From Pontibaca methylaminivorans (lineage in GTDB: Bacteria > Pseudomonadota > Alphaproteobacteria > Rhodobacterales > Rhodobacteraceae): a stretch of 64,000 bases of DNA. The stretch is from assembly GCF_900156525.1 (NCBI RefSeq), contig NZ_FTPS01000001.1:124001-188000 (forward strand), read 5' to 3'. The notes under the pieces were generated by a model. The model was not told where the DNA came from and did not search any database. It saw nothing but the letters and a program-made list of their open reading frames with translations. The position numbers were made by a program, and so were the translations under genes. Shown piece after piece: positions 22,268 through 46,700 of the stretch (position 1 is its first letter; each line of letters opens with the position of its first letter).

Positions 22268-25200
22268 CTAGCGGGCCACCCCGGTGTCGGCACCAGCATC
22301 AGCACCACCGGCCCGGGCCTCGAGCGTGCAGCGCAAAAGCCGCGCAAGTTCCCCGACAAAGGGTTCCTCGAGCATCGTGAGATGCCCGCCCTGCACGTCG
22401 TGGAGGTCGAAGCCGCCCTGTGCAACGGCGCTCCAGCCAAGCCCGGTCTCGATCGCCTCGGGGCTGTCCGAGACGTTTTCGGTCGCCCGGATGATGGTCA
22501 GCCGTCCCGGGTAGGGGGCCGGCCTGTAGTTGCGCGCAGCCAGTTCATTCGCGGCGACGAAATCGCCGATCGAGGCTTGCGTTGGAGCTTGGGGCGCGGC
22601 GCCGCCGTTGCCGCGCCGCCGTTCCACAGCAAGATGGTGATGAAAATCGTCCCGTTTGGCCAGAATGATCGCCCGCAGGTGGCTAAGACCGGCTTTGTGC
22701 AGATAAAGCATATGCGCAAGGCAGCGGCGCAGCAGGGGAAGCCGGGGCCGACCCATCGGGCCCTCGATATCCAGAAGCGCCACCATCCGCACATCGCGCC
22801 CCGCTTCCCGCAACTGCCGGGCCAGTTCAAAGGCGATGTAGCTCCCGAGCGATACGGCCACCAGTGAAAGCGGGCCTTCGGGCTGATGGCGGTCGATGGC
22901 GCGACGATAGAGCGCCGCCACCTCGGGCACGCTCACCGGGGTCCGTTCATCCACGACGCCGACGGTAAGGCCGAGCACCGGCTGGTCCGGCCCGAGCCGG
23001 GCCGCGAGCGGCCGGAAGAAGGAACCGTTGCTGCCCAGCACATGCACGCCATAGATCGGCGGCAGGTGGCCTTGCGGCTGAATGGGGATGACACAATCGG
23101 GATCCTTTCCGGCCTGCTTCTGCAAGCCGGCCGCGATCTGCCGCGCGGTCGGACTCTTGTAGAGCGCGGCGAGGCTGAGCCGGCGCCCGAATTCGCGCTC
23201 GATCAGGGTCATCAGGCGCACCGAGAGCAGGGAATTGCCGCCGATGTCGAAAAAGGACTGATCCGGCCCCACCGAATCGGTGCCGAGCAGCCGCGCCAGG
23301 ATCGCCTGGATCCGGGCGGTGTCCGCATCCGCCGGCAGGTCTGCACCGCGGCTGGCGACCTCGGGGCGGGGCAGGCGGGCAATATCGACCTTGCCGCCCG
23401 GTGTCTGGGGGAATTCTTCGACCACGACGATCTGCGGCACCATCTGTGCGGGCAGGGCCTCGTGCAGGCGGTCCGCAAGGGCGCCCGCATCGAAATCGGG
23501 AGCCGGTTCGCGCAGCGTGATCCAGGCCAGAAGGCGGGCATCGGCGCCGTGCGGCCGGTCGACGCTGACGACGGCAGAGCGCACCTCCGCCTCGCGTTCG
23601 AGGGCCGATTCCACCGCGCCGAGTTCGATCCGGTAGCCGCGCAGCTTGACCTGCCGGTCGATGCGGCCGTGATAGGCCAGAAATCCGTCCCCGCGCCAGG
23701 TCACGCGGTCGCCGCTGCGATAGCAGAGCGCGGATCCGTCCAGCGGATCGGGTACGAAGACCGGCGCCGTGAGATCCGGGCGGTCGAGATAGCCAAGGCC
23801 GACCAGCGCACCGCCGATCCAGAGTTCACCGCCCACGCCCTCGGGCGCAAGCGATCCGTCGGGCAGCATCACATGAAGGCGCGCCGCGGCGATGGGGCGC
23901 CCGATCGGGATGTCGGTCCCGTCGAGGGGCGCATCCGTCATGTCATGCAGCGTCGCGGTGATCGTAGTCTCGGTCGGGCCGTAACCGTTCAGGCAGCGGA
24001 TCGCGGGATAGGCGGCGCACCAGCGCCTGACCGCGGAGGGGGAGGGACGCTCGCCGCCGACGATCAGCAGCCGCAGGTGGGCGGCAAGGTCGGGCGGCGC
24101 GGCAAGTTCATCCACATGGGCACAGAGCATGTGCCAGAAGGCGGTCGGAAGATTGACCACGCTGATGGCATGGTCGCGCAGCCCGGCGAGGAAGGCTTCG
24201 GCGGATTGCGCCATTTCCAGGCTGCGCAGCACCAGGGTCGCGCCGGACACCAGCGTCGGCAGGATTTCCTCGATGGAGATGTCGAAGTTCAGGCTGGTGA
24301 ACTGCAGCACCCGGTCGCCCGGCGCAATGGCATAGGCGTCCGAGATCGCCCGGACCTGATGCGCGATCGCCCGGTTCGGAATCACGACCCCCTTGGGCTG
24401 GCCGGTGGAGCCCGAGGTGAAAATCACATAGGCGGGCCGCTCCGGCGCGGCGGGGCCGCGTTCGGGGGCGGTGTCCTGCGTGCGGCCGGCGAGCGATTCG
24501 ACCAGCGTCACGGCAATGGTCTGCGGATGCAGCGTCTCGAGCACCGGGGCGCTTGTCAGCAGGTGGACCGCGCCCGAGCGGTCGATCATGTCCTGAAGCG
24601 CCGACTGCGGATAGCTCGGGTCGAGCGGCATGAAGGTCGCCTCGGCCTTCATCACGCCGAGAAGCGCGGCGATGTAGTCCACGCTTCGCGGCAGGGCGAG
24701 CCCGACGATATCGCCCGGGCGGACTGACCGGGCACGCAGATGCGCGGCGATGGCGTTGGCGCGTGCGTCGAGCCCTGCGTAGGTCAGCGCGGCGGCCTCC
24801 CCCACCTGTTGGAGCGCGATCCGGTTCTGCTCCCGCTGCGCGACCTGCTCGAAACGGTCGATCAGCGAAAGCGCATCCGCGGCAAGTTCCAGCGGGCGCT
24901 CGGGCGTTCCCAGCGCGATCAGCCGCGCCTGTTCTTCCGGCGGCAGCATCGAAAGCGCGGCAAGCGGTGCCTGATCATCGAGCGCCGGATCGGCCATCGC
25001 CTGCAAAAGATTGATCAGATAGGTGAACAGCCGCTCGGCGCTCGCATCCGGATATTGTCCCGGATCGTATTCCAGCCGCAGCAGCAGTTCGGGGTCGTCA
25101 TAGGCCGCGAGCATGAGCGCCGTTGCCATCTGGCTGCGCTCCTCGACCTCGCGATGCGCGAACTGCGGCCCGAGCGCGCGCATATGCGCCCCGACCGAGT

Positions 25201-26308
25201 CGCGGTCGAACATCAGGATGCTGTCGTAAAGCGCCTGCGGGCGCGGCACGTCGCAGACCGCGGTGATTTCGGCATGGGGTGTCTGCTCGAACGGGCGCGT
25301 CGCCAGAAGATAGGCGCGCAACTCGGCCAGGACCTGCCCGATGCTGCGCCCCGAAAGCCGTATGCGGCAGGGAAGCGTGTTGATCCGGCATCCGGCGCTT
25401 GTCCCGGTGCCGGACAGACTCCGGCGCCCGGAGCGGGTTATTCCGAACACGGCCTCGTCGCGCCCCGAACAGCGCGCGATCACCAGCCCCCAGGCGGCGG
25501 CAATCATCGTTGCGGTGGTCACGCCGAAGGCGGCGGCGCTTTCGCGCAGCGCATCGGCCTGCGCCCGGCAGAGCCGGCGCGTGATCGTCCGCCGGATATC
25601 GGAATCGCTGTCCGCATCTGTCCGGAAGGGCACCGCGAGCCGGTTCGGCGCATCGAATCCGCTGAGATGCTCGCGGAAGAATTCCCGCGCCGGTCCGTGA
25701 TCGGCGCCGGCCATGGTGCGACAATACGCAAGAAATGAGTCAGCAAGCGGCGGCAGCGCCGGCTCGCGGCCGTTCGCAAGCTCGTCATGGATGATGAACA
25801 ACTCGCGCAGCAGCAGGCGAATGTCGTTTCCGTCAAGCTGTGCGTGATGAAAGGTCCAGACCATCACGTTCTGATCCTGGCCGAACCGGATCAGACGCAC
25901 CCGCCACGGTGCCCACTCCAGATCCACGCCCCTGCGGCGGTCCGCCTCCAGCCAGTCGTCGAGCGCCTGTTCCTGCCGGTCGGCGGGCGCGTCGAGCGGG
26001 ATCGTGTCGAAATCGACGGTGAAACCGGGGATGATGCTTTGCGAGGGGCTCGCTTCATCGAGGCGGAACTGCAGCCGCAGGGCGTCATGCCGGGCGGCAA
26101 GCGCCTGCCAGTCCGCGCGCAGATGCGCCGCGTCAACCGGCTCGTCCCCGAAGCGGACGATGACCTGCAGGATGTTGAATGCACGCCGGCCGGCCAGTTC
26201 GCTTTCGATCAGGAGCCCGACCTGGGCTGCCGTCAGGGGCGCCGGGCCGGATGTCTCTTCGCTGCGCAGTCCGACATCCTTCCTCAATGATGCTGCCGAT
26301 GGGTGCAT
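22268..26308 (-). CDS. Single-module non-ribosomal peptide synthetase (C-A-PCP-TE)
   Basis: A 1346-residue enzyme. The condensation domain has FHHAQLDGND near residue 155. The adenylation domain shows A3 FTSGSTGQPKG (near 632), A5 NGYGPTETT (near 777), A7 YRSGDRV, A8 GRIDRQVKLRGYRIELG and A10 TPGGKVD. The carrier site is FFDIGGNSLLS (serine near 1026). The thioesterase has AVSLGS (near 1152), where the usual GxSxG has Ala first, and a catalytic His in GGHLTMLEE (near 1307). Hand alignment to GrsA gives the specificity residues D-I-E-N-I-G-G-I-T-K. The layout equals EntF, but no siderophore genes are near. The ATG at 26308 has a GTGGAG ribosome site; a GTG at 26320 is the alternative. Confidence 0.95.
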   Translation of the reverse strand: MHPSAASLRKDVGLRSEETSGPAPLTAAQVGLLIESELAGRRAFNILQVIVRFGDEPVDAAHLRADWQALAARHDALRLQFRLDEASPSQSIIPGFTVDFDTIPLDAPADRQEQALDDWLEADRRRGVDLEWAPWRVRLIRFGQDQNVMVWTFHHAQLDGNDIRLLLRELFIIHDELANGREPALPPLADSFLAYCRTMAGADHGPAREFFREHLSGFDAPNRLAVPFRTDADSDSDIRRTITRRLCRAQADALRESAAAFGVTTATMIAAAWGLVIARCSGRDEAVFGITRSGRRSLSGTGTSAGCRINTLPCRIRLSGRSIGQVLAELRAYLLATRPFEQTPHAEITAVCDVPRPQALYDSILMFDRDSVGAHMRALGPQFAHREVEERSQMATALMLAAYDDPELLLRLEYDPGQYPDASAERLFTYLINLLQAMADPALDDQAPLAALSMLPPEEQARLIALGTPERPLELAADALSLIDRFEQVAQREQNRIALQQVGEAAALTYAGLDARANAIAAHLRARSVRPGDIVGLALPRSVDYIAALLGVMKAEATFMPLDPSYPQSALQDMIDRSGAVHLLTSAPVLETLHPQTIAVTLVESLAGRTQDTAPERGPAAPERPAYVIFTSGSTGQPKGVVIPNRAIAHQVRAISDAYAIAPGDRVLQFTSLNFDISIEEILPTLVSGATLVLRSLEMAQSAEAFLAGLRDHAISVVNLPTAFWHMLCAHVDELAAPPDLAAHLRLLIVGGERPSPSAVRRWCAAYPAIRCLNGYGPTETTITATLHDMTDAPLDGTDIPIGRPIAAARLHVMLPDGSLAPEGVGGELWIGGALVGLGYLDRPDLTAPVFVPDPLDGSALCYRSGDRVTWRGDGFLAYHGRIDRQVKLRGYRIELGAVESALEREAEVRSAVVSVDRPHGADARLLAWITLREPAPDFDAGALADRLHEALPAQMVPQIVVVEEFPQTPGGKVDIARLPRPEVASRGADLPADADTARIQAILARLLGTDSVGPDQSFFDIGGNSLLSVRLMTLIEREFGRRLSLAALYKSPTARQIAAGLQKQAGKDPDCVIPIQPQGHLPPIYGVHVLGSNGSFFRPLAARLGPDQPVLGLTVGVVDERTPVSVPEVAALYRRAIDRHQPEGPLSLVAVSLGSYIAFELARQLREAGRDVRMVALLDIEGPMGRPRLPLLRRCLAHMLYLHKAGLSHLRAIILAKRDDFHHHLAVERRRGNGGAAPQAPTQASIGDFVAANELAARNYRPAPYPGRLTIIRATENVSDSPEAIETGLGWSAVAQGGFDLHDVQGGHLTMLEEPFVGELARLLRCTLEARAGGADAGADTGVAR

Positions 26309-26666
26309 ACTTGACTCCACTTCCCGGCGCGCGCCGCAGCCATAAATTTCACAAACTCGTTACCTCAAGGCGTGAAACCAGATATAATCAGACAATCTCC
26401 AGCGAATCCACCTTATGCGGGAAAAATAAAAAAGGCTTCTCCCGGCGATTGCACGGGCCGCGCGCGGCGACCGGTGACGGTGCCTGGAACCCGGAACGCA
26501 ACAGCCGGCGCCAGGCGGGTTCCCCGGCAGCCCGGCAACATGATCCGGCCGGTTCGCCAGCCGAAACCCGCGGTTCAGGGCAGGTCAGGCTTGCGCCCCC
26601 GCATCCTGGTCACGTATCAGTTCCGCCAGGCCTGCCTTGAATTTTTCTTGGAAAGACATTTGCCAT
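26309..26666. promoter_or_regulatory. Divergent intergenic region between NRPS and methyltransferase genes
   Basis: This 358-base stretch separates two divergent genes and should carry promoters for both. Its first third is AT-rich (for example AAAAATAAAAAAGG near 26423), unlike the GC-rich rest. Overlapping open frames here show no ribosome site or recognisable product and look like chance frames. A TATAAT box is listed separately. Confidence 0.5.
26360..26388 (+). promoter_or_regulatory. Possible promoter with perfect -10 box
   Basis: TATAAT at 26383-26388 is preceded, after 17 bases, by TTACCT at 26360-26365, a weak -35. It points toward the methyltransferase gene about 280 bases downstream. 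AT-rich sequence makes a chance match possible. Confidence 0.3.
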
Positions 26667-28385: not shown

Positions 28386-29030
28386 TCAGCCGCTTTCGAG
28401 GAATCGCGCGTAATCGTCGGGGGGCAGGCGGTAATCGGTCTTGCGGCTGGCCAGCGTTGCCTGCGCGAACAGACCGATCACCATGGTCATGGCGGATTTC
28501 GGGATGTCGTCGGGCTTGATCTCGAACACGGCCATGCGGCCCACGGTCTCGACCGGCTTCGCGAAGCGTTCGACCACGTGATATTTCTGCCGGTCGGTAT
28601 AATCGTCGAACAGCACGGTGACCGGCCGTTCCACGCGCAGGCAGACGGTGGCGAGGCAGGCGGGGCGGAAGCGGCCGTCGATCAGGACCAGATCCGGGTG
28701 GCGAAAGAACGGCTGGTCCCAGATCGCCAGCGGATAGCGGTGATACCGCTCGTGGGCGCTGTCATCGACGGGCCGGCCCCAGGCGCCGGTGGCGCCGATG
28801 TCGATATGCCAGACCACGGCCGGCGAGGGCAGGGCGGCGGCGTCGATCTCCTGCTGGAGATTGATCGCCCAGTCGCGGTCGCTTTCCACGCTCATGACAT
28901 ATTTGCCGGGCATCTGCGCCCCGAGCCAGGTGGAGCCGCCCGAACCATATTCCAGAATCACCCGCGCGTCTTCGTAACGGCGGCGCAGATAGTCGGCTTC
29001 GGCATCGGGGAAGGTGAGTTTATAGGGCAT
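28386..29030 (-). CDS. Methyltransferase-fold protein of unknown function
   Basis: A 214-residue protein. ARVILEYGSGGSTWLGAQM is a motif-I-like glycine-rich loop, VMSVESDRDWAINLQQEI resembles the acidic strand 2, and DLVLIDGRFRPACL and TVLFDDYTDR resemble motif IV/post-IV strands of class I methyltransferases. The IDGRFR motif is common in this group, found near glycan or rhamnan synthesis genes. No catalytic pair can be assigned, so an inactive binding role is possible. It converges with the coiled-coil methyltransferase gene and lies downstream of the ATP-grasp gene on the minus strand. Confidence 0.75.
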   Translation of the reverse strand: MPYKLTFPDAEADYLRRRYEDARVILEYGSGGSTWLGAQMPGKYVMSVESDRDWAINLQQEIDAAALPSPAVVWHIDIGATGAWGRPVDDSAHERYHRYPLAIWDQPFFRHPDLVLIDGRFRPACLATVCLRVERPVTVLFDDYTDRQKYHVVERFAKPVETVGRMAVFEIKPDDIPKSAMTMVIGLFAQATLASRKTDYRLPPDDYARFLESG

Positions 29031-29059: not shown

Positions 29060-30403
29060 TTATCGGCGATATTCATTAATTATAGAATCGAATTCGGGAA
29101 ACTTCTTTCCTGTATAAAGGTCGTTGAACAGGCGCGCGCGAGCATTAATAAAGTGCCTTCCCAACATGCGGTCTGCGCTTAAGTCAAAATTATGAGAGCT
29201 TCCGGGGCGCGGAGTGAACTCTCCAAAAACCAAACCTTCCGAAGAGTCAAAAAGGTCAATTCTTACGAAAGGGGCTGGGATCTTGAGACTAATTTCTTCC
29301 ACCAAGTTGCAGAAATTTTCTGGAATCTCTCGCCCTTCGAAGTAGCTGTATTGTGGTTGCCCTACATTGGCTATTTCCCCCTCTCTGTTTCGCCAAGAGT
29401 ATAATGGCTTCTCTCCAAATCTGGACACCTCCAAAACCAATGGAGATTGACCATAAAAGACATAAAACTTGAGATCGTTTGGCGGCCCGCCCTCTTTATC
29501 TATTATCATCTCCTCCACAATCCATGAGTCTCTTCGTCCGTGATTTTCGCTAAGGACGCATTGCATGGACGCTTGAAGTTCTTTGATTGACGTTAACCTC
29601 GACCTGTCACGAACATTTATTATATTTGCACTGTCCTTTATTATATATACGCCTGTAGAGCCTCCGCCTCTTGTGGGCTTGATAACGCTGTTAGGGGAAA
29701 AATCCAAAGCGCTTATTGGAATATTTCTTTGGAGTATTTTGGGCACTCTCAACCCAACAAGTTTGGCGAAGTGGAGGCCGACTTTTTTGTCTTCTAACAA
29801 GAATTCTATACGGTGGCCGGCTATCTCCCCGTGAATATCACGCTTCTTGCTCTGAGCCCATGTTTCTGACGAAAAGGAGCATCCTTCAAAAATATTACTT
29901 CCGCATCCTTGAAAAATCTTAGATGTGTGTGGCGGTAAATGCTCCAATAAAATTGAGGTTCGGACCTCTTGTGCATCGACGTTGGATAGATCTTTAGATT
30001 TATGCAATCTTGATGTCGATTGCAGGACTGTTTCGCTCAAAGCGCGAGTAACTCTCCTATAGCTTAGAAGTGTCTTCTGCAGTGACTCTCGCGCTGCTAT
30101 TGCTGGCTCCTCATCTTCTCTATAAAGGATATTGAAAGATGATCGTGCGTGTGGCGTAGCCTCAAGCACCGAAATTTCAGAAATTTCACTTTCTCCATTC
30201 CCAGTCATAATTTTCGTCAAAAGACTGTGCACGGAATCAATCGGTCCTTCAAGCATAAGGTCAACTATGGCCGTGCCGGGAAAATTTCTATTCTTTACCC
30301 ATCCCGAAACACCAACCTCATTAGCTTTGTCTCTGATCCATTTCCGAAAACCTACCTTTTGAACCTTCCCAGTCAGGACAACGCGGATCGCCTTATTGTT
30401 CAT
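29060..30403 (-). CDS. Acylphosphatase - TupA-like ATP-grasp fusion protein
   Basis: A 447-residue protein with two domains. Residues about 1-95 are an acylphosphatase: GKVQKVGFRKWIRDKA and GWVKNRNFPG keep the catalytic Arg (residue 20) and Asn (residue 38). Residues about 170-440 resemble TupA-like ATP-grasp ligases: VIKPTRGGGSTGVYII, WIVEEMI and FVRIDLFDSSEGLVFGEFTPRPGSS supply lysine and acidic ATP/Mg positions. ATP-grasp ligases make an acylphosphate, and acylphosphatases hydrolyse one, so the pairing is notable. The ATG at 30403 has AAGGAGGAG before it. The gene is strikingly AT-rich (22 of 60 bases GC at 29581-29640, against 38 of 60 at 28681-28740), a sign of recent transfer. Product and acceptor are unknown. 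Confidence 0.85.
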   Translation of the reverse strand: MNNKAIRVVLTGKVQKVGFRKWIRDKANEVGVSGWVKNRNFPGTAIVDLMLEGPIDSVHSLLTKIMTGNGESEISEISVLEATPHARSSFNILYREDEEPAIAARESLQKTLLSYRRVTRALSETVLQSTSRLHKSKDLSNVDAQEVRTSILLEHLPPHTSKIFQGCGSNIFEGCSFSSETWAQSKKRDIHGEIAGHRIEFLLEDKKVGLHFAKLVGLRVPKILQRNIPISALDFSPNSVIKPTRGGGSTGVYIIKDSANIINVRDRSRLTSIKELQASMQCVLSENHGRRDSWIVEEMIIDKEGGPPNDLKFYVFYGQSPLVLEVSRFGEKPLYSWRNREGEIANVGQPQYSYFEGREIPENFCNLVEEISLKIPAPFVRIDLFDSSEGLVFGEFTPRPGSSHNFDLSADRMLGRHFINARARLFNDLYTGKKFPEFDSIINEYRR

Positions 30404-30427: not shown

Positions 30428-33082
30428 CTAGAGCGTTGATCGTTTCAGTCGATCAATATGCATCTCGTAGCTGAACTTTTCCGCAGCGTACCGTTGCGCT
30501 TTCTCGACCTGAGCAGCATAGGCGGCCGGATCAGAATGCAGTTTGCGCGCCGTCTTTACGGCCGTCTGCGGAGTGGCATAGATCGCGGCATCCTCGAACA
30601 GCGGGCGGTAAACCTCGGGCAGGATCACCGGCACGCCGGTCGCCATCGCCTCGATGATGGTGCGGCCAAAGGATTCCACCCAGTCGGGATGCGCAAAATA
30701 GACGAACACGTCGATATCGGCCAGGAAATCCTTTGGGTGCAGTGACCCGAACGGATGCACCGTCCAGTTATCCGGCACTTGGCCAATCAGCGACGCCGGA
30801 ACCTCGGCGCCGCCCAGCACATGCACCTCGATATCGTCCGAGGCGGGGTAGGCGACAAGCGTGTCCTCGCGCGTTGCCGGCCATTTGACAAACTGGTCGC
30901 GGGAATGGCGCCCGATGCGCAGCCTGTCGGACGGTCCGCGCCTGCGCGGGCCGCGATCCCAGCCGTTGATGTCGATGATATTGTGCCAGTCTTCGGGCGA
31001 GAGGTCGATATGGTGCAGCTCATCCGCGTGGTGGGTGTGCAACGCATCGCGCACCAGCGGCCCGATCGGGTGCCAGGTGGCATCCTTGCCGAAGTAATGG
31101 CGGATATTCTCGGCGCAGTCGGCCAGCCGGTAGCGGACGATTCCCTCTTCCGTGTAATCGCTCATCGGCGGCTGGTTGACGATCACCCTGATCTGCTTCG
31201 CGTCGATCTTGGGAAGGTAGCGTAGGCGGTGCTGAAGTATCGGAGGATAGCGCATGACGAGAAGATCACAAGAAACCTCTTCGCCATAGACGATAGGCGA
31301 GCAGAGTTCGCCATCCAGCACATCTCGGACTTCTGGCAACATCCGTTTACCCTTGATCGGGTAATCGTACCTGTACATTTGACAGACACCGGTTTTCAGG
31401 CCGTTGCGCTTTTGGCACTCTATCTCTTCCACATTTGAACGAGTGCTGCCACCGTGCATTCGGAATTCCGAACAAATAATGACATCGTAATGATTCTTGA
31501 TCTTCGCCCGATCAGGATGCATTACGATTGGAGTTGCAAATTGCGGTCTTCTGGAGCTTGGGTAATAGAGCGTTTTGTCCTGATGTATCAGTTGTCCTTC
31601 AAAATACTCCATGCGCGCGCCAAAGAAAAATCCGTCCATTCCAAAGGCATCATTCGACACTATGGAACTCTCGGATACTCTCTGAAATGATAGCGGCCCG
31701 GTAACTAGTGACTGGACCGCTTCATGTCCGAATGCATTTCGGATGCGCCGTATTTTTTCGCTGTCGGCACCAAAGCGGACTGTATCCCAATATCCGATAC
31801 GGTCGCACACCGGCTTGTGCCGATGCATGAACGAAGACACATTTTCCTTTACAAAGTAAATGGATCTGTGAGAGCCCCATTTCGGAAATGAAAGGCCATC
31901 CGCCATCCGCGCCTGCTCCGACGTGCACCCCATCACCTCGGGGTTGTCCTGCATGAACCGCACCTGGGTCTCGATCTTGAGCGGGTGCGACCAGTCGTCG
32001 GCGTCGTGGAGCGTGACGAACTCCCCGCTCGCCTCGTCCAGCCCCCGGTTGCGGGCGACATAGGCGCCGCCGTTCTGCTCCATGCGGATCAGGCGGATGC
32101 GGGGATCATCGGCGGCGAAGCGCTCCGTGACTTCGCAGGTGCCGGGATTGGGCGAACAGTCGTCGATGACGATGATCTCAAGGTTCTTCCAGGTCTGTTC
32201 CTGCAATGAGCGCAGCGCCGTCGGCAGCATCTCTTCCGCCTCGTAGGCGGCGATCAGCACCGTGACCTTCGGCCCGTTCCAAACCGCCGGAAGCGGCTCC
32301 ACCGTCGTGAGGCGGTCATAGGGCGGCCGGCCGTCATCCTCGAGCAGGCGCAGGGGCGGGATGTCATACTGCCGCAGCACCTGGTTGATCCATGTGACCC
32401 GCAGGTCGGGCGTCGGCTGGAAATTCACCCAGGCCAGCATCACGTCGGGCGTCACCTCGCCGGCCAGCGCGATCCGGTCATAGGCGGCCTGCCCGTCCTC
32501 TGTTCGGCCGAGGAAATGAAGGCAGAGCAGTTCGGCCACCGACAGCTTGCTGCGGAAATCAAGGTCGGGCGCCGTCCGCCGCGCGGCCGCGATATGGGTG
32601 AGCGCGGTGCGATAGCCCTCGTCGGTCTTTTCCCGCATGTGCCAGAGCGCAAGTTCCCGCGAGGCCATGGCGCGCGCGGCCGGGTTTTCGTCGCTCCGCG
32701 CGATCTCCTGCAGTTCGGCCAGCGGCTGGTCGGTAAAGCCGAGGCTCAGCAGTTTGCTGCGGATGGTCCCGATCCGCGCCCGGGCCTCCTGATGGCTGTT
32801 GCGGCGCGTGCCCCGGCGGGCATAGCCGTTCTGTTCGCCGAACAGCGCATAGTGCAGCAGCGGGTTGATGCCGGAATCCGCGACCTCGGGGTGGGTTTCC
32901 AGGTAAAACCTCGTGTCGAAGTTCTTACCCGGATTGCGCCCCATGGCAGCGCCATACTTCAGATAATGCTCCGCCGGCTCCATCCCGAGCGCCGCGACAT
33001 CGGGGTATTGTTCGCGGTACCAGTTGCTGTGAACCTGCTTGGTGCGTTTCAGAGTCGTGATCGGCTTGGCTGGAATGTCCAT
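30428..33082 (-). CDS. Large two-domain glycosyltransferase (GT2 plus GT4-like)
   Basis: An 884-residue protein. An N-terminal stretch (HSNWYREQYPDVAALGMEPAEHYLKYG) is typical of proteins that start multi-domain polysaccharide transferases. Around residues 270-470 is a family 2 transferase (VTVLIAAYEAEEMLPTAL, VIDDCSPN, FVTLHDADDW, the metal-binding motif). A C-terminal GT4-like domain has VFVYFAHPDWVESFGRTIIEAMATGVPVI, with the E-x7-E type donor motif. It likely builds two linkages of a surface polymer. The middle part near 31.2-31.9 kb is visibly AT-richer than the rest (26 of 60 bases GC at 31441-31500), a mosaic sign. The ribosome site is weak. Confidence 0.9.
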   Translation of the reverse strand: MDIPAKPITTLKRTKQVHSNWYREQYPDVAALGMEPAEHYLKYGAAMGRNPGKNFDTRFYLETHPEVADSGINPLLHYALFGEQNGYARRGTRRNSHQEARARIGTIRSKLLSLGFTDQPLAELQEIARSDENPAARAMASRELALWHMREKTDEGYRTALTHIAAARRTAPDLDFRSKLSVAELLCLHFLGRTEDGQAAYDRIALAGEVTPDVMLAWVNFQPTPDLRVTWINQVLRQYDIPPLRLLEDDGRPPYDRLTTVEPLPAVWNGPKVTVLIAAYEAEEMLPTALRSLQEQTWKNLEIIVIDDCSPNPGTCEVTERFAADDPRIRLIRMEQNGGAYVARNRGLDEASGEFVTLHDADDWSHPLKIETQVRFMQDNPEVMGCTSEQARMADGLSFPKWGSHRSIYFVKENVSSFMHRHKPVCDRIGYWDTVRFGADSEKIRRIRNAFGHEAVQSLVTGPLSFQRVSESSIVSNDAFGMDGFFFGARMEYFEGQLIHQDKTLYYPSSRRPQFATPIVMHPDRAKIKNHYDVIICSEFRMHGGSTRSNVEEIECQKRNGLKTGVCQMYRYDYPIKGKRMLPEVRDVLDGELCSPIVYGEEVSCDLLVMRYPPILQHRLRYLPKIDAKQIRVIVNQPPMSDYTEEGIVRYRLADCAENIRHYFGKDATWHPIGPLVRDALHTHHADELHHIDLSPEDWHNIIDINGWDRGPRRRGPSDRLRIGRHSRDQFVKWPATREDTLVAYPASDDIEVHVLGGAEVPASLIGQVPDNWTVHPFGSLHPKDFLADIDVFVYFAHPDWVESFGRTIIEAMATGVPVILPEVYRPLFEDAAIYATPQTAVKTARKLHSDPAAYAAQVEKAQRYAAEKFSYEMHIDRLKRSTL

Positions 33083-33434: not shown

Positions 33435-33974
33435 ATGAAAGACAATCTGGAAATCGGCTCCGATGCGGGCGTCAATCACACGCTGCAGATGCTCAGGGAT
33501 GGCTCGTCGAAAGGTGAAATCACCCACAAGACCGAGATCGCGCCGGGCCTGTTTCTTCTTGCCGATCCGCGGTTTTCGCATGTGGGCGGGGGATATGCCT
33601 CACCAAACGGGCGCCTGCTGGAACTTGACGTAAAACCCCGGGGCGACGGCGAATGGATCGGGCTGCATCTTTCGCTTTCGATGACCAATCTGGCGGATAA
33701 GGGCGTTCTTGGATTTGCCTGCCGGACTGCGGCGCCGGAGCTCATGATCATGCGCGCCTGTGTTCGGTCGGGAACTGAATCAAGATTTACGGACGCGTTT
33801 TTCGACAAGCATATCCTGGTTCAGACCGAGGAAGCGACCCATCTGGATGCCCTGCCTCTTTACCGGCAAACCGGATTGCTTCCGGTTCGGGCCGCATGGC
33901 GCGAACTTGTGTTCTTTCTGCCAACCCGCGGTTTTCAACTTTCCCTGATAGACCTTCGCGTCTTTGCGGTATGA
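33435..33974 (+). CDS. Hypothetical protein of the polysaccharide island
   Basis: A 179-residue soluble protein, not recognised. Its beta-rich sequence (GLFLLADPRFSHVGGGYA, GEWIGLHLSLSMTNLADKGVLGFAC, FQLSLIDLRVFAV) looks like a jelly-roll or carbohydrate-binding fold, but that is a guess. The stop overlaps the start of the next glycosyltransferase gene (ATGA), so it belongs to that operon. Start choice is uncertain: ATG at 33435 or at 33411, the latter with GGAGGTG at longer spacing. A glycan-related role is inferred from position. Confidence 0.6.
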   Translation: MKDNLEIGSDAGVNHTLQMLRDGSSKGEITHKTEIAPGLFLLADPRFSHVGGGYASPNGRLLELDVKPRGDGEWIGLHLSLSMTNLADKGVLGFACRTAAPELMIMRACVRSGTESRFTDAFFDKHILVQTEEATHLDALPLYRQTGLLPVRAAWRELVFFLPTRGFQLSLIDLRVFAV

Positions 33975-34945
33975 GCTGCACGCTTGTCATTCCAACCCGA
34001 AACGATACGACCAATCTGAAGCGGCTGCTGGAGCAGGCGTTCCACATGAAATGCTTTGCCCGGGCAATCGTGGTCGATGACGCGTCCGATTCCCCGCTGA
34101 GCCCCGAACTCTGCCTTCTGGAGCGGCCGGACTGGGTTCACCTTACCCGGCATGAAAATCGAAAAGGGGCGGGTGCGGCGCGCAATCTCGGGCTTCAATT
34201 TGTCGAAACCTCCCATCTTCTGTTTTTTGACAGCGATGACCTGCTGACGCCGGAAATCCCGCATCTTTTAGCCGATCTTGACGGGCGGGAGTTCGACTTC
34301 TGCATTTTCAAACATAATGACAGCCGCGTGAGCGCGGCCGGGTCATGGGGGCAAACCCGATGGGACGAGGCGCTGTGGCGGCACGCCGGTGTTGCGGTCG
34401 GCGCCTTGCGGCCGGTATCGCCATCCTCCGCCCCAACGCTGGCGCGAACCGCGAATTACCCCTGGAACAAGATCTATCGGACAGATTTTCTGCGCGATAA
34501 TGGGCTGCGTTGTTCGGAAACGCTGGTGCATAACGACATTCTTCTGCATTGGGCCAGCTTCATTCGTGCCCGGGATATTCTCTCGTCGGATCGCATTGCT
34601 GCTATCCATCATGTCGGCCTGAAATCCGGTCGGCTGACCGATCATTCGGGGCCTGAACGACTGGCGGTTTTCAATATTTTACGCGATGTTCTAAACACGG
34701 AAATCCCCGGGGACCGAAACTTTTTCGCGGCCTTTCTGGGATTTGCCAGTTACCTGTTCGGCTGGATCCGCGGGGTTATCGCCCCGTCTCAACAACCGGC
34801 GCTCGATGCGCAAATCCGGCAGTTTCTGCTGGCCGCGCTGTCGCCGGGCGACTATCGTAACCTGACCGTTTCGGACCCGGTCCTTGCGCTGCGGATCAAC
34901 CTGCAGCTTGCGGAAACGCGCAGAGCAGGGGCTGGCACATCATGA
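33971..34945 (+). CDS. Family 2 glycosyltransferase
   Basis: A 324-residue GT-A protein. CTLVIPTRNDTTNLKRLLEQA opens the fold, then IVVDDASDSPLSPE and HLLFFDSDDLLTPEIPHLL with the DSDD metal motif, and NKIYRTDFLRDNGLRC in the acceptor region. It should transfer a sugar from a nucleotide sugar onto a surface polymer in the cytoplasm. The ATG overlaps the previous stop (ATGA) and its own stop overlaps the next start (ATGA), so three genes are coupled. Its GC content is lower than the tol block, consistent with an acquired island. Confidence 0.88.
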   Translation: MSCTLVIPTRNDTTNLKRLLEQAFHMKCFARAIVVDDASDSPLSPELCLLERPDWVHLTRHENRKGAGAARNLGLQFVETSHLLFFDSDDLLTPEIPHLLADLDGREFDFCIFKHNDSRVSAAGSWGQTRWDEALWRHAGVAVGALRPVSPSSAPTLARTANYPWNKIYRTDFLRDNGLRCSETLVHNDILLHWASFIRARDILSSDRIAAIHHVGLKSGRLTDHSGPERLAVFNILRDVLNTEIPGDRNFFAAFLGFASYLFGWIRGVIAPSQQPALDAQIRQFLLAALSPGDYRNLTVSDPVLALRINLQLAETRRAGAGTS

Positions 34946-35976: not shown

Positions 35977-37152
35977 TCAGTCGCTGCCGAACAGGTCGCG
36001 GGTATAGAGTTTCTCGGAATAGCCCTCGAGGTCAGAACTGTTCCGGTTCGCGACAATGACATCAACGCCGTTGCGGAATGCATCCAGATCGCGCATGATC
36101 GGGGAGCCGAAAAAGCTTTCGTCCTCCATGGCGGGCTCATAGATCCAGATTTCCACGCCCTTCGCCCGCAGCCGCTTCATGATGCCCTGAATGGCGCTTT
36201 GGCGGAAATTGTCGGATCCGGCTTTCATGACAAGCCTGTAAATCCCGACAACGCGGGGCTTTCGCGCCAGTATGTCGTCGGAAATGACGTCCTTGCGGGT
36301 TCGATTGGCATCGACAACGGCCGCAATCAGATTTTGCGGAACGTCACGGTAATTGGCAAGCAATTGCTTGCTGTCCTTGGGCAGGCAATAGCCACCATAA
36401 CCAAAGGAAGGATTGTTGTAATGGTCGCCGATACGCGGATCAAGGCAGACGCCCTTGATGATCTGGCGCGTATCCAGTCCCTGCGTCAATGCATAGCTGT
36501 CGAGTTCGTTGAAATAGGCGATGCGCAGCGCGAGATATGTATTCGCAAACAGCTTGATCGCCTCGGCCTCGGTCGATCCCGTCAAAAGGATTTCGACATG
36601 TTCATCAAGAGCGGAATCCTTGAGAAGATTGGCGAAATCCTCGCCGCGCTGGCTGTTTTCTCCGACGATGATCCGCGACGGGTGCAGGTTGTCATGCAGG
36701 GCGCGGCCTTCGCGCAGAAATTCCGGGCTGAAGATCACCTGCTGCGTGCCGAGCCGCTCTGAAACATGGCGTGTGAATCCGACCGGCACGGTCGATTTCA
36801 CGATAATAACCGCCTCGGGGGCAATTTCCTTTGCTTGCGCAATGACCGTTTCAACGCTTGAAGTATCGAAGTAATTGGATACCGGATCATAATTCGTCGG
36901 CGTGGCGACAATGATGTAATCCGCGCCGTCAAAGGCTTCGGTCACGTCGGTGGTGGCGGTCAGATCAAGCTGGTTTTCGCTCAGATAATGGACGATATCC
37001 GCATCGACAATCGGGCAGCGGCGTGCATTCAGAAGCTCGACCTTATGCGGGTCAACGTCCAGCGCCCGAACCCGGTTGCGCCCGGCCAGCAATACCGCGC
37101 TCGACAGCCCGACATAGCCGATACCGGCGACTGCAATCGTCTTTCCTGCCAT
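35977..37152 (-). CDS. ugd: UDP-glucose 6-dehydrogenase
   Basis: A 391-residue nucleotide-sugar dehydrogenase that oxidises UDP-glucose to UDP-glucuronate with two NAD+, supplying precursors for acidic surface polysaccharide. The NAD motif is [17 protein letters not shown]. Then come [12 protein letters not shown]-like [28 protein letters not shown] and the catalytic cysteine in [19 protein letters not shown]. The length is like E. coli Ugd (388). The ATG follows AAGAGGTTTCG. It ends the island and is divergent from the giant repeat-protein gene across a 605-base gap. Confidence 0.97.
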
Positions 37153-37757: not shown

Positions 37758-40700
37758 GTGAAGAAATATGGTCTCGGCATGCCCGGCTGGATGGCCGTGC
37801 TGGTTTTCGTGTTGTCGGGTGCGGCGGCCCAGGCGCAGGATCTGACGCTCAACATCAGCGATACCGGCTTCGACCCGGTGCCGGCGGGCGGTACGATCGA
37901 ATATTCCGTGCGCCTCCAGAACGGCGGCAACAGCCGCTCGGCCGCGGATGTGCTGACTTTCGCGATTCCCGCGGGTGCGGCCTACTGGGGCGCGGCGGGC
38001 GACCTCGAGGGCTGTTCACCGGCGCCGGTCCTGCAGGGGCCGGCCAGTGTCAGTTGCCCGGTTCCCGAACTTGCACCGCGTGCCGAACTGCGGGGCACCG
38101 TTCATCTGGCCCCGGCCGAGGCGGGGGTCACCACGTTCGGCGGCACGATCGGAACCACCACCATCACCGAGGATACGACCGTTACCACCGGTGCCGATCT
38201 CGGGCTCGATTTCGATGCGCCGGCCGATATCCGCGCCGGAGAGTTTCTGACCTTCGCGGCCGTCATCACCAATAACGGGCCTTACCCGAGCGAGGGCACG
38301 CGCCTCACGGTGCCGCTGCCGCCGGCGCTGTCCAGCGACGTCACGCTCCCGTCCGGCTGCGCGATCAGCGGCAACGAGATCACCTGCGACATCGCCGGGC
38401 CGATCGCGGTCGGGAACGATGTGCGGCTTGAATTCACGACCCAGATCCTGACCGCCGACGCCTCGAGCGTCTCGGTCGCCGGTTCACTGTCCAGTTCGCA
38501 GCCGGCCGATTCCGATCTCAGCAATGACGAGAACGCCTTCGTGATCGCCATCAGCCCGGGCACCGACGTGCGGCTTGGCAAGGCGCGCGCGCCTTCGGGG
38601 CTGCTCTATGTCGGGCAGCCGGTGACCTTCACGCTGAGCCCCGATTTCGTTGGCGATGCACCGCTTGATGCCCAGATCACCGACGATCTGCCCGCGAATT
38701 ACGAATTCACAAGTGTCAGCCCGTCGGGGGCCGGCTGGATCTGCAATGACACGAACCCCGTTGGCTGCAGTTATTCCGCGACCGCGCCCGATCCGGCCGG
38801 TTTCCGCGCCCCGATCACCATAACCGCCGTGCCGATCAGTGAGAGCCCGGCCGGTGCGCCGGTCGTGAACACCGCGGTGATCGCGTCGAGCCTTGATCTG
38901 GTGGCGGACAACAACAGCGCCTCGGATGGGGGCGCCGATATCGTCCTGCCGACGACCGATCTCGTGGCCGAGAAATCCGGCCCGGCCCACGGGCTCGTGA
39001 CGGTCGGCAACGAATACGACTGGCGGATCGGCACGCGCAACGACGGCAACATCGGTTTCACCGGCCGCCTTGTGCTGACCGACCGCCTGCCGGAGGGGTT
39101 GCGGGCCACTGCGATCGGGGCGCCTGCGGGCTGGGCCTGCGCGCCGGGGGTGCCGCTGAACGGCCCGGCTGAAATCCGCTGCGAGACCGACAATTACGCC
39201 GCGACGCCGCTGCCGGTCGGCGGCCAGACGCCGCGCATCACCATCACCACCGAAGTGCTGGCCGAGGGCCGGCTCGACAATGAATTGCAGGTCGGCTTCA
39301 CCGACGAGACCTATCCCGACCGCGACATGAGCAACAACAGCATCACCCGCGGTGTGACCTCGGGTGACGGCACCACCGTTGGCATCGCCGATCTTGTGCT
39401 GGTCAAGACGGTTGCCGATCCGGGACCCCATGTGGCGGGAGAACCCGTTCGGTTCACGGTGGAGGTGAGCAACAGCGGCCCCGGAACCGCCGGGGACGTG
39501 CGTGTGCTCGACCGCCTGAGCGATCTCTACTTCGCCGATTCCACCACCACGGGCGTGACCCTCGACACGGTACCGGCCGATGCGGTCTGTACCGTCACCC
39601 GCGGCTCCGGCTTCTATAGCGACCTTGCCTGCACGATTGATGAACTGCCGGCGGGGGAAACGCGCAGCATCAGCTTTACCGCGCTCGCCGGCGGCAACGC
39701 CGGCACGCGCACCAACACCGCCGAGACCTATTCCACGGCGACCCCCGACCCGGATTATGCGAACAACACGGATAGCGTGACTTACGGCGTTGCGGCGCGC
39801 ACCGATGTCACCGTGGCCAAGACCGCATCTCATGCCGCCGGAAGCGACGTTCAGGCCGGGCAGCGGCTGCGTTATATCCTTTCGGCCAGCGTTCCCGCGA
39901 ACGGGCTGTCGTCGGCTGAAGATGTGATCGTGACCGACCGGCTTCCGGCGGGGCTCAAGTTCGTTTCCGCGACGCCGTCGCAGGGGGTCTGCGACGACCC
40001 CGGCGCCACGCTCATCGACGGCTACCTGACCAGCAGCGTGACCGAGCTCCGCTGCAACCTCGGCACCATCACCAACGGCAATACCCAGTCGGTCGAGATC
40101 GTGGTGGCGCCGACGACGCAGCTCGTTTCGCAGGAGATCGAGAACCGGGTCGGGGTCGAGACCTCGACGCCCGAGATCGACGACACCAACAATGCCGACG
40201 CGATCACCCACCGCGTCACGGCGCCCGCGCTCGACCTCATCACCAACAAGACCGACGATCCCGACCCGCTCGAGATCAATACGCCGACGATCTATACGGT
40301 CACGGTGCGCAATGCCGGCCCGTCCGAGGCGTTCAACCTCGTGATCACCGACACGCTGCCCGACGCGGGCATGCGCTATGACGGCATTGTGGACGCGGGC
40401 GGCATGGCCTGTTCCGAGCAGGATGGCGCGGCCGTCGGCAGCATCGGCGGCAGGCTGGCCTGCACCCTGCCCAATCTCGAGGTCGGCGCCACCGCGACGC
40501 TCCGCGTGCAGATGACCGGTGTGCAGCGCGGACACTGGGTGAACCATGTCGAGGCGCGCTCGGACGAATATGGTCACGAGGCAATCACCGCGAACAACGC
40601 GGTCAGCGAGGCGACATCCGTTTTCGAGCGCTCGAACCTTGCCGTGACCAAGGCGCCCTCGCGCCCGGTGGTCGACCTGGGCGAGGAGTTCGACTGGATC

Positions 40701-43700
40701 ATCACCGTCGAGAACCGCACCGCCGCCGGGATCGGGCTGGCCGAAAACGTGGTGCTGCGCGACATGCTCCCGGCCGGGATGGTGATCAGCGATGCGGTGC
40801 AAACCAGCGGCGGCAGTTGCGACGCACCGACCGGCGGGCGCAGCCTGGTCTGCGTGCTGCCCGACATGGTCGCCGGCGAAAGCCATGTCGTGACGGTGCC
40901 GGTGCGGGTCACGTCGATCAGTGCCAACCCGCAGGACGTCGCCAACAGCGCCAGCGTCGAGACCGATTCCTTTGACGACGACGAGTCCGACGACACCGGC
41001 AGCGGCACCGTCGCCGTGCTCTCGACCGGCGTGTCCGGCACCATCTGGCGGGATTTCAACGAGGACGATCTTCGTGACGGCAATGACAGCGGCATCGGCG
41101 GCCTGACCGTCCGCCTGAGCGGCACCGACGCCTGGGGCAATCCTGTCCCCGCCCGGACCGCCACCACCGATGCGAGCGGGAACTACAGCTTTTCACTGCT
41201 GCCGCCCGGCGAATATCGCGTGAGCTATGATCTTCCGTCGGGCGACGATTTCCTCGGCGGCAGTGCCCTGCCGGGCGCGAGCGGTGCGGCGGATGGCGCA
41301 AATGCGATCCGCACCATCACCGCAGCCACGGATGCCCCCGTCGGGAACACCGATTTCACCCTGGTCCCGCAGGAGCGGATCGCGCTCGCCAAGCAGGTCG
41401 CGGCGCCCGTGGTCCAGGCGGATGGCTCCTATCTGCTGAGCTACGAGTTCCGCATCCGCAACCTGTCGCAGGAGCCGCTGCGCGATTTCGCCCTGCGCGA
41501 CGATCTGCAGGCGGGATTCGGCACCCATACCTCTGCCGCACCGGCACCGGGGCAGTTCGCCGTGACAGGGGTCAGCGGCGCGACCATGGCCGGCGCCGAC
41601 GACGATGCGATCCATCTGACGATGCCGGGGCCGCTCGCTCCCGGGGGCGATGAGCTGGTCACGCTGGTGTTGCGGGTCAATCCCGCCCTGCCGCGCGAGG
41701 CGGCGGCGCTCGACCACGTCAATGCGGCCGAGGTCACCGCAACCGGCGTCTGGTCCGGCAAGACGCCCGGTGATGCCTCGAACGACGGCACCACGCCCCG
41801 CCATGGCGACGCCTCGCCGACCGGGGCGCCGGTGACGTTCGCGCCGGCGGTCACGCTGGCCAAGGCCGCGACCCTTGAGAACGGCGGCGGTCCGGCGCGC
41901 CCCGGTGACATCGTCCGCTATGGATTTACCGTCACCAATACCGGCAATACGCCGCTTCTGAATGTCACCCTTTCCGATCCGCTGCCCGGTCTGGTCTGGG
42001 ACAGCAACCCGGTGCTCGACCGGCTGGATGTGGGGGCTGCCGACAGCACGAGCTTTGCCGCGCATTATGTGCTGACGCAGGCCGATATCGACGCGGGCGG
42101 GGTGGACAACACCGCGCGCGTCGAGGGCCGCTGGGCCGCCGACGGGGTGCCCGATCCGGTCACGACCGCGACCGGCAGCGCCGGGATCACGGCGATCGCC
42201 GAGCCGGGCCTGGACGTGGTCAAGACCGAGGTCGCGAATACGGTTCAGGATCCGACCCGCCCGGGTGACACGATCCGTTACGAATTCACCGTCAGCAACA
42301 CCGGCAACACGGTGCTCCATGATGTGGTGCTGACCGACGATCTGCCCGGAATTGCCCCCGATCCTGCCGGCAGTTTCGTCATCGGCACGCTCTCTCCGGC
42401 GGGCGAGGGGGGATCATTGGTGACCTTTCATGCCGATTACACGGTGACCCAGGACGATATCGACGCGGGCGAGGTGATCAACACCGCCCGGGCCGCCGGC
42501 ACGCATGGGCCGGGCGACACACCGATTGCGGCGGATGCACCCCCGGTCAGGACGCCTCTCGTTCCCGATCCGCTGATGCGGGTGACCAAGCTCGTCGACA
42601 CCGCCACCGTTCCGACACCGCCACGCGCGGGCGACAGCATCGGCTGGACCGTCACGATCGAGAACATCGGCAACACCAGCCTGAGCGTCGGCACCATTGC
42701 CGAATCGCTGCCGGACGCCAGCATTACCGCGCCGGGCAGCGCGCTGCTCGCGCCGGGCGAGAACACGACCGCCGCTGTCAGCCATACGCTGACGCAGGCG
42801 GACATCGACGCCGGCGAAATCGTCAACCAGGTGACGGTTTCGGGCCGGGTGCCGGGCTCCGACACGCCGTTCCGCGACACGCCCTCGGGCAATGACCCCG
42901 ACGCGCCGAACGAGGATCCGACCGTGGTTACGCTCGACCATGCGCCCGGAATTGCCCTGCTGAAAAGCGTCATCACCGATGTTTCGGGCCCGCTGATGCC
43001 CGGCGACGCGATCACCTTCGGTTTTGCGATCCGCAACACCGGAAACGTGACGCTGCACGACCTTGTCCTGAGCGACGACCTGGCGGATGTGGTGCTCGAT
43101 GACGCCGCCCTTTCCGGGCTGAGCCTTGCCCCGGATGACGAGGTCACGGTCGCGGGCAACTATTTCCTGACCGTGGCCGACATCGAGGCCGGCGGATTCG
43201 ACAACAGCGCGACCATCACCGCGAGCGACCCCGGCGGCAGTTCGGTGACGGACCTCTCCGGCACCGGTTTCGACAATGACGGCCCGACGCGGGTCGATCT
43301 GCTCCGCGCGCCGGATGTCGCGCTGATCAAGACCATCAGCGCCGCGCCCGCCGCGCCGGCCGCCGCCGGGGACCGGATCGACTACGGGTTCGAGATCCGG
43401 AACACGGGCAATGTCGAGCTGCGCGACATCGCCCTGGCCGATCTGGTCGACGATGTCGTGATCACGGGCAGCCGGAGCGCGCCGCTGCCGGTCGGCGACA
43501 GCGACAGCACGAGCTTTACCGGCAGCTATACGCTGACCCAGGATGACATCGACGCCGGTGTTTTCGCGAATACCGCGCAGGTCACGGGCCTCGGCACCGG
43601 GTCGGGCGGCGAGGCGCGGCCGGTTTCGGACATGTCCGGCACGGATGCGGACAATGACGATGCGACGCTGTTCGTGATCGACCCGTCGCCCTCGCTTTCC

Positions 43701-46700
43701 ATCACCAAGGCCGCCGATGACGGCGCGCTCGGCACCCCGCCGCGGGCCGGTGACGAGATCACCTACAGCTTTACGCTCACCAACACCGGCAACGTGACGC
43801 TGAGCAACGTGATGGTAAGCGACCCGCTGCCGGGGCTGCTGTTCGCGGAAGACACGATCACAGCCCTTGCGCCCGGAAGTTCCGGTGTGCTCACGGCGAC
43901 CTATGCCCTGACCCAGACCGATATCGAGGCCGGAGAGGTCAGGAATCGCGCGAGTGTGAGCGGCGATTACGACGATCCGGCGAGCGGCGACACGGCGAGC
44001 GCGAGCGCCGATTCGAACGAGGTCGAGGTGACGCTGCAGCAGGAGCCGGGGCTCGCCGTGGTCAAGACGGCGCAGCCGCAATGGAGCGGTGCGGCATCGC
44101 CCGGCGCCCGTATCTCTTATGAATTCACGGTGACGAACACCGGCAACGTGCGGCTTCAGGATGTGACTCTGACCGATCCGCTGCCGGGGCTTGAGACGGG
44201 CACCTGGACCCTCGGCGCGATGGAGCCCGGAGCGGAACAGGTGGTCGCGACCATCTATGAACTGACCCAGGAAGACATCGACGCGGGCGAGGTGGTCAAC
44301 CAGGCCGAGGCGAACGGGCGTTTCGGAACCACCCCGGTGAGCGACCGCTCCGGCCCCGATGCGGAGAGTAACGAGGAAACCGTCGTGCCGCTCGAACAGG
44401 CGCCGGGCCTGCTGCTGGAAAAGACGGCCGATGCCTCGGGCCTGACCGATCCGGCCGTGGTCGGCGAAGAAATCGCCTACAGCTTCGTCGTCACCAACAC
44501 CGGCAACGTGACCCTGCGCGACGTTATCGTCACCGACACGCTGCCGGGGCTCGCGCCCCAGACCCTGCCGGTCGGAGAGCTTGCCCCCGGCGCGAATGTG
44601 ACTGTCGGGCCTGCGATCTATGCGATCATGCAGGCGGACATCAACGCCGGCGCGGTGGAAAACCGCGCAAGCGTGAGCGGCACCTATGGTCCGCCCCATG
44701 ATCCGCGCTCCCACGAGGCGGCATCGCGCAGCGAAAGCGGCGTCGACGGGCCGACCGTGATCCCGGTTGCCGGCCGCCCCGGGATTGCGCTGATCAAGGA
44801 GCTTGCGCCCGGGACTGATGCCGAAAACCTGCGCCTTGGCGACGAGATCCGCTGGGTTTTCACAGTGGCGAATACCGGCAACGTGCCGCTTGGAAATGTC
44901 ACGATCACCGAAGAGATGGTCTCGGCCGTCGTCTCGGGCGGGCCGGTTGCGCTCGATGTGGGGCAGGCGGATAGCACGAGCTTTACCGCGTCGCATGTCA
45001 TCACCCAGGCCGATCTCGATGCCGGGGAGATCGAAAACCGGGCGCGGGCGCGGGGTTCCTTCGATGCCGGGCCGGGCGATCCGGCCATGGTCGAGGATAC
45101 ATCGGGCAGCACGTTCGACAATGATGAACCAACGGTCACGCCGCTTGGCCAGCGCCCGGCCATCGATCTGGTCAAGACCGCTGACACGTCAAACCTTTCG
45201 ACACCGCCGCAGGCCGGGGAGCTGATCCGATACGGATTCACCATCACCAACAGCGGCGAAGTGACCCTGAGCGGGGTGACGCTGGATGATGTGATGCCCG
45301 GGCTCGAACTCGCCGGTGCGCCGATCGCGAGCCTTGCCCCCGGCGCTTCCGATGCCACGAGCTACAGCGCGACCTATGCGCTCACGCAGGAGGATATCGA
45401 CAGCGGCGCCACGCTCGAGAACCGGGCCGAGGTGAGCGGCAGCTATACCGACCGCGACGGAAATCCGCAGCAGGTGAACGCGCTGTCGGCAACCGATGGC
45501 GGCGTGGAGGGGCCGACCACGGTCATGGTCGACCGCGCGCCGGGGCTTGAACTCGTCAAGACCGCGGATCGCTCGGGCGTCTCCGAAACGGCGCTGCCCG
45601 GCGAAACCGTCACCTATGAATTCGCGCTGACCAACACCGGCAACGTGACGCTCCATGACCTGAGCATCGACGACCCGCTGCCGGGGCTTGTCCTGCTGGG
45701 CGCGCCCATCGCGAGCCTTGCCCCGGGCGAGACCTCGCATGCGATCACCGGCACCTATGCGCTCACGCCCGAGGATATCCGCGCGGCGGAACTCGACAAC
45801 ACCGCCCGGGCACATGCGTTCTGGCGGCCCGAAGGCGCGCCGCCGGTCCCGGTCGCGAGCGATGACTCCTCGGTCACCGTGCCGCTCGGCTATCCCGAGA
45901 TCGCCCTTGATATCACGGTCGGTGAACTCCGCGATGTGAACGGTGACGGCATCATGGGGCCCGCAGACCTCGTGTTCTTCCGCTTTGAGGTGACCAACAC
46001 GGGCACCGTTCCGCTGAACGACGTGAATATCGACGGCGCGAGCCTGTCGCTGCTGCTGCCCGGGCTCCTCTGCACCCCGATCACGCTTGCCCCGGGCGAG
46101 AGCGCTTTCCTCGACTGTTCGGGCGGGGGCTATGCGATCACGCCGGCGGATGCCGGGCGCGGGCAGATCAGCCTTGCGGGCGATGCGACCGGCAGTTCGG
46201 ACGCGGGCGTCGTGGTCCGGTCGAGTTCGGCGGCGATCAGCTTTGCCGAAATCGCGCAGGGCGGCGTCACCATCGAAAAGATCGCCGGGATCGAAACGGC
46301 GATGATCGGCGATCTCGTTCCCTACACGATCACCATTCGCAATTCGGCCGGTGGAGTCGCGATCACCGCCCGGGTGGAAGACATGCTCCCCGCCGGTTTC
46401 AGCTATCGCGCGGGCTCGGCCCGGCTCGACGGGGTGCCGCTCGATGCGGTCGAAAACGGCCGCCGGCTCGGCTTCGGGCCGATCACGGTCGAACCGGGGC
46501 AGAGCCGGGCGCTCACCCTGTCGGCGCGCGTCGGCGGCTCGGTGCGGCCCGGCGCGCACGAGAACCGCGCGCGGCTGCTCAGCACGCTCACCGGGCGCGA
46601 CATCGCGCCCGAGGCCCGGGCCACGGTGCGGGTGCTCGCCGATGCGGTGCTGCAATGTGCAACCGTGCTTGGCCGCGTGTTCGACGACCCGGACCAGAAC

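Follow-up and report, generated by a model that had tools for sequence, protein, structure and literature searches.

The only biochemically characterised TupA-like ATP-grasp domain found in the open-access literature searched is the C-terminal domain of Campylobacter jejuni Cj1438. It forms an amide between the glucuronic acid C6 carboxylate and either serinol phosphate or ethanolamine phosphate as ATP is converted to ADP, and in the Campylobacter capsule a separate HAD phosphatase, Cj1435, strips the phosphate after amidation (PMC11800379, PMC11800397). For acylphosphatases, two papers describe no substrates other than acyl phosphates (PMC4210487, PMC8147672). The 64,000-nucleotide stretch of Pontibaca methylaminivorans DNA analysed here (the window) encodes a single protein in which an acylphosphatase domain precedes a TupA-like ligase domain. 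This pairing of two well-known enzyme folds is undescribed in the open-access literature searched, in line with the original prediction, which named no characterised example. It would tie the amidation of surface polysaccharides to a domain that has long lacked a clear cellular role.

Architecture of the fused gene

The fused gene is an unbroken minus-strand frame with its ATG at 30403 and a stop that ends at 29060 (Table 1), and the sequence 5' of the ATG, AAAGGAGGAG, contains a strong ribosome-binding site. Residues 7–92 match PF00708 (Acylphosphatase; E 2.6e-17, 63.3 bits against a Pfam cut-off of 22.5), and residues 200–418 match PF14305 (ATPgrasp_TupA; E 3.5e-33, 115.5 bits against a cut-off of 25) over positions 15–240 of the 241 in the profile. 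In the AlphaFold model of the protein (pLDDT 88.5, pTM 0.72), residues 2–94 superpose on the solved acylphosphatase 1w2i (Z 16.8, 1.3 A, 90 residues). Residues ~176–431 resemble the ATP-grasp ligases LysX, ArgX, RimK and Ddl (Z 12–13; about 13 with 3.8–4.2 A for LysX, ArgX and RimK), including ArgX 3vpc (Z 13.0, 3.8 A, 209 residues over 176–431). At the level of the predicted structure, the fold identification of both halves is confirmed. The original prediction had called the second half TupA-like, and both the PF14305 match and the ATP-grasp fold of the model bear this out rather than a different fold. Six conserved nucleotide/metal residues of the ATP-grasp domain (K206, K242, K312, R381, D383 and E395) are invariant among 11 sequences, and all are present in the window protein.

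The helical linker between the two domains also belongs to unfused TupA-like proteins; the tblastn matches in L025 and L027 start at residues 108 and 104 of the window protein. Since unfused relatives share the linker and the ATP-grasp domain but start differently, the acylphosphatase appears to have been added in front of an existing ligase.

Table 1. Coordinates of the fused gene, its domains and neighbouring genes in the window
Feature	Position	Strand	Basis
Acylphosphatase, helical linker and TupA-like ATP-grasp putative amide ligase, 447 aa	29060..30403	(-)	Single ORF, ribosome-binding site, Pfam
Acylphosphatase domain, residues 1-95, VQKVGFR20 loop, GWVKN38	30119..30403	(-)	Pfam, model
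Helical linker, residues 96-199	29807..30118	(-)	Model helices 99-195; also in unfused TupA-like L025, L027
TupA-like ATP-grasp domain, residues 200-430	29114..29806	(-)	Pfam, invariant columns, structural match
GT2-GT4 glycosyltransferase of 884 aa, next gene upstream across a 24-base gap	30428..33082	(-)	Pfam
214-aa protein, YGSGGST motif, 29 bases downstream	28386..29030	(-)	ORF
UDP-glucose/GDP-mannose dehydrogenase family	35977..37152	(-)	Pfam
GT2 glycosyltransferase, same cluster	33896..34945	(+)	Pfam

Composition and genomic context

The fused gene has a GC content of 0.442 and a GC3 of 0.438, compared with 65–69% GC nearby and GC3 above 0.8 in the genes flanking the cluster. This foreign composition agrees with the earlier claim that the gene is AT-rich against its surroundings and was transferred. 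GC is even along the gene (0.435 in the acylphosphatase part, 0.455 in the linker and 0.447 in the ATP-grasp part); thus, the gene probably reached the genome already fused. Neighbouring cluster genes (30–37 kb) have intermediate values (0.56–0.60), a common pattern in polysaccharide loci. The GT2-GT4 gene is itself a mosaic, with a GC content of 0.48 in codons ~401–600 and 0.59–0.69 elsewhere, which suggests within-gene recombination.

The 214-aa protein encoded downstream has no Pfam match; by eye it might be guessed to be methyltransferase-like, and its gene is probably on the same transcript as the fused gene. The UDP-glucose dehydrogenase family gene lies 5.6 kb from the fused gene and is a candidate source of UDP-glucuronate. 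No phosphorylated-amine donor or phosphatase domains of the Cj1435–1437 type were found among the genes of this cluster that were scanned by Pfam. Beside the polysaccharide cluster is a single-module NRPS-like gene with condensation, AMP-binding, carrier and thioesterase domains (22268–26320 (-)). A probable surface protein of 3,159 aa, repetitive and rich in DUF7507/DUF11 repeats, is encoded at 37758–47237 (+).

A distant alphaproteobacterium, G584, contains a homologue of the GT2-GT4 glycosyltransferase (813 aligned columns, E 6e-110) that directly precedes a TupA-like ligase without an acylphosphatase domain. The pairing of this glycosyltransferase with a TupA-like ligase is therefore older than the fusion or independent of it. 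Coupling of the ligase to a polysaccharide glycosyltransferase, a feature of Cj1438, is present both in the window, where the GT2-GT4 gene lies upstream, and in the homologous G584 pair.

Distribution of the fusion

The original prediction allowed that the architecture might prove common. It is rare: in a sample of ~1,540 distinct genomes, for which the query was either the window protein or the fused homologue, the fusion occurs, besides the window gene, in one genus (two species) and in one probable degenerate case. The full-length fused homologues, L047 and L059, are from genome G1074 and its congener G1150; they are 31–32% identical to the window protein and 93% identical to each other. 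The fused gene of G1074 lies outside any glycosyltransferase cluster in the 18 kb viewed. At L054:3748–7451 in G1074, the fused gene is near genes for an AMP-binding enzyme, an NAD/Asn-synthase-like protein and a thioesterase. The probable third lineage, L022, is from Rhabdonatronobacter sediminivivens (G039). In the model of its N-terminal region, residues 34–129 adopt an acylphosphatase fold (Z 10.9, 2.3 A, 86 residues), an assignment that is only probable because the window protein was part of the alignment behind the model.

A scan of genome contigs with two short peptide patterns, which was not exhaustive and of a kind that probably misses L047, identified nine TupA-like relatives, L022 among them, and the other eight have no recognisable acylphosphatase domain. 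The fused protein is absent from the viral contigs scanned, phage records contain no match to the window protein, and plasmids yield one-domain matches only and no fusion. Plasmid proteins of Deinococcus and Rhizobium that match both ATP-grasp and acylphosphatase domains are ordinary, much longer cyanophycin synthetases. In the tree of ATP-grasp domains, the fused proteins form one clade in 36% of bootstrap trees, support too low to tell a single fusion from repeated ones; for the window protein and L047, full-length homology speaks for a common origin.

TupA itself occurs in alkaliphilic Bacillus. Among the nearest unfused TupA-like relatives, several (L023, L024 and L026) carry CSSed or T1Sed sediment MAG labels, which we take to denote, perhaps, soda lakes, and L022 is from Rhabdonatronobacter. 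Billgrantia desiderata encodes two TupA-like ligases ~7 kb apart (L027:571 and L027:7899).

A second fusion of an acylphosphatase to an ATP-grasp ligase, independent of the window gene, is present in G584. The gene at L055:10327–11676 encodes a RimK/cyanophycin-synthetase-like ATP-grasp domain followed by a C-terminal acylphosphatase with an intact VQGVGFR/GWVRN site. It adjoins two other ATP-grasp genes in a polysaccharide locus where a TupA-like ligase is encoded as well, and its only full-length match among 61 genomes of its order is in G584. In this protein as in the window protein, an acylphosphatase is combined with an ATP-grasp ligase and the gene belongs to a polysaccharide locus; however, in G584 the domain order is reversed, the ATP-grasp subfamily is different, and the phosphate loop is canonical.

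Decay of the acylphosphatase site in the fused relatives

The phosphate-binding Arg20 and the water-orienting Asn38 are present in the window protein exactly as the original prediction placed them, within VQKVGFR20 and GWVKN38, and the numbering is the same in the P. horikoshii acylphosphatase (PMC8147672). Among 37 acylphosphatase domains compared (L022, too diverged, was left out), Arg20 is invariant, and position 38 is Asn and position 16 Gly in 35 of the 37 each. Only the window copy has Lys16. Its loop thus reads VQKV in place of the canonical VQGV, and the domain is assigned only to the fold family, short of the class of active enzymes. It is the only acylphosphatase in its genome, which is no hint of function, as 107 of the 149 family members lack any match; many of those with a match have it in long, HypF-size frames.

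The other fused proteins have diverged further at the site. In L047 and L059, FDGAAS replaces VQGVGF, the Arg is kept and Asn38 has become Asp; the acylphosphatase Pfam score of L047 is 22.0 bits, just below the 22.5 cut-off. In L022, neither the Arg nor the Asn is aligned. The dN/dS ratio between L047 and L059 is 0.23 for the acylphosphatase-like part (bootstrap 0.05–0.66), 0.04 for the linker and 0.10 for the ATP-grasp part. A domain whose catalytic residues have changed but which is under purifying selection argues for a non-hydrolytic role in the L047/L059 lineage and, with the loss of the site in the other fused proteins, implies that acyl-phosphate hydrolysis cannot explain why all of them retain the domain.

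Predicted function

The window protein is interpreted, with a probability of about 0.52, as a polysaccharide uronic-acid amide ligase that carries an acylphosphatase-fold anion-binding or scaffold module. The TupA-like ATP-grasp domain would act as an ATP-dependent carboxylate–amine ligase and form an amide on a uronic-acid carboxylate of the polysaccharide that the adjacent glycosyltransferases make. The carboxylate would be activated by ATP to an acyl phosphate, from which an amine would displace phosphate. The acylphosphatase-fold domain, presumably an N-terminal addition to an existing linker and ligase, may serve mainly in anion binding or scaffolding, for example by keeping a phosphorylated amine, the growing glycan or the ligase itself in a fixed arrangement. 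The family would not need acylphosphatase activity; the window copy may retain it as a side activity.

For the ligase half, the chemistry of the Cj1438 C-terminal domain, together with the presence of every residue invariant among relatives, makes amide formation on a uronic acid of the polysaccharide the best inference and, by analogy, the most likely role of this half. The homologous GT2-GT4 pairing in G584 and the nearby UDP-glucose dehydrogenase gene also favour this assignment, and the setting of the G1074 gene counts against it. The acylphosphatase part is more likely a binding or scaffold module than a proofreader: the ligase residues are conserved while the acylphosphatase site has decayed in relatives, the altered domain is under constraint, and the window copy has a lysine in its loop. 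Against the binding role, Arg20 and Asn38 are both retained in the window copy, which is unexpected if hydrolysis is valueless, and the G584 fusion, with its intact site in a polysaccharide locus, points to a link between the two activities. If the domain is a binding module retained after catalysis was lost, one of the smallest enzymes has been put to a new purpose.

The original prediction proposed hydrolytic proofreading or a switch, in which the acylphosphatase cleaves acyl phosphates leaked from or stalled on the ligase and so resets wrong or unpaired carboxylates. Such a role fits Arg20 and Asn38 within a confidently modelled fold, the ADP-forming reaction of the characterised TupA-like ligase, which is expected for acyl-phosphate activation, and the fusion in G584 of an acylphosphatase with an intact site to another type of ATP-grasp domain. 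However, the site has been lost in both other fused lineages although the domain was kept, under purifying selection in one of them, and a loop Gly has been replaced by Lys in the window copy. In addition, the acyl phosphates of ATP-grasp enzymes are normally enclosed within the active site, where access by a separate domain is doubtful. Site loss in the relatives thus weakens the proposal, leaving it possible only for the window copy and the G584 fusion; it is doubtful overall, yet the retained Arg20 and Asn38 and the intact G584 site keep editing a live minority hypothesis. It is unlikely that both halves of the window protein are active and that its acylphosphatase hydrolyses the acyl phosphate of its own ligase, editing or shutting off polysaccharide amidation, with the G584 protein as a second, independently evolved example. 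Were the acylphosphatase active here, it would serve an ATP-grasp ligase in editing, an arrangement of which no example was found.

Two other explanations concern the product and the origin of the fusion. The ligase could couple a phosphorylated amine, with the acylphosphatase removing the phosphate in place of the HAD phosphatase Cj1435. Campylobacter does require that second enzyme after amidation; to our knowledge, though, acylphosphatases cleave carboxyl-phosphates and not phosphomonoesters, the site is lost in relatives, and no synthase for such amines is present among the genes scanned by Pfam, making this role very improbable. The fusion may also be a chance event of no present importance, in which an acylphosphatase gene became fused with a ligase that had moved horizontally, and decay of the domain is under way. 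Its rare and patchy occurrence, the decayed site in relatives and the looser constraint on the acylphosphatase part than on the ATP-grasp part are all consistent with such an origin. Still, the bootstrap interval for the altered domain lies entirely below 1, and the domain has been kept at 31–32% full-length identity across distant genera, so that chance joining seems rather unlikely.

Comparison with known systems

The acylphosphatase half shares its complete fold and the Arg20 and Asn38 positions with stand-alone acylphosphatases (EC 3.6.1.7, PF00708; P. horikoshii 1w2i, B. subtilis 3br8), and is distinguished from them by its fusion to a ligase, the Lys in place of the phosphate-loop Gly and a longer loop after Asn38. 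HypF also has an N-terminal acylphosphatase domain (structural match Z 15) in a multi-domain enzyme, one that handles carbamoyl phosphate, but the partners there are Zn-finger, YrdC and Kae1 domains and include no ATP-grasp (PMC6022934). The SelD-like and acylphosphatase-like fusion of Thermoproteales is similar in that the partner may make a phosphorylated intermediate whose hydrolysis was proposed; the partner and the pathway are different (PMC4210487). For the ligase half, the closest described system is the Cj1438 C-terminal domain, which is of the same TupA-like ATP-grasp type as judged from its published description (PMC11800379). Both have an adjoining or fused GT2 glycosyltransferase, in a polysaccharide cluster with a uronic-acid source, a candidate one in the window. 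In Cj1438, however, the ligase is preceded by a GT2 domain and by a domain of unknown function of ~127 residues, in the position that the acylphosphatase occupies in the window protein.
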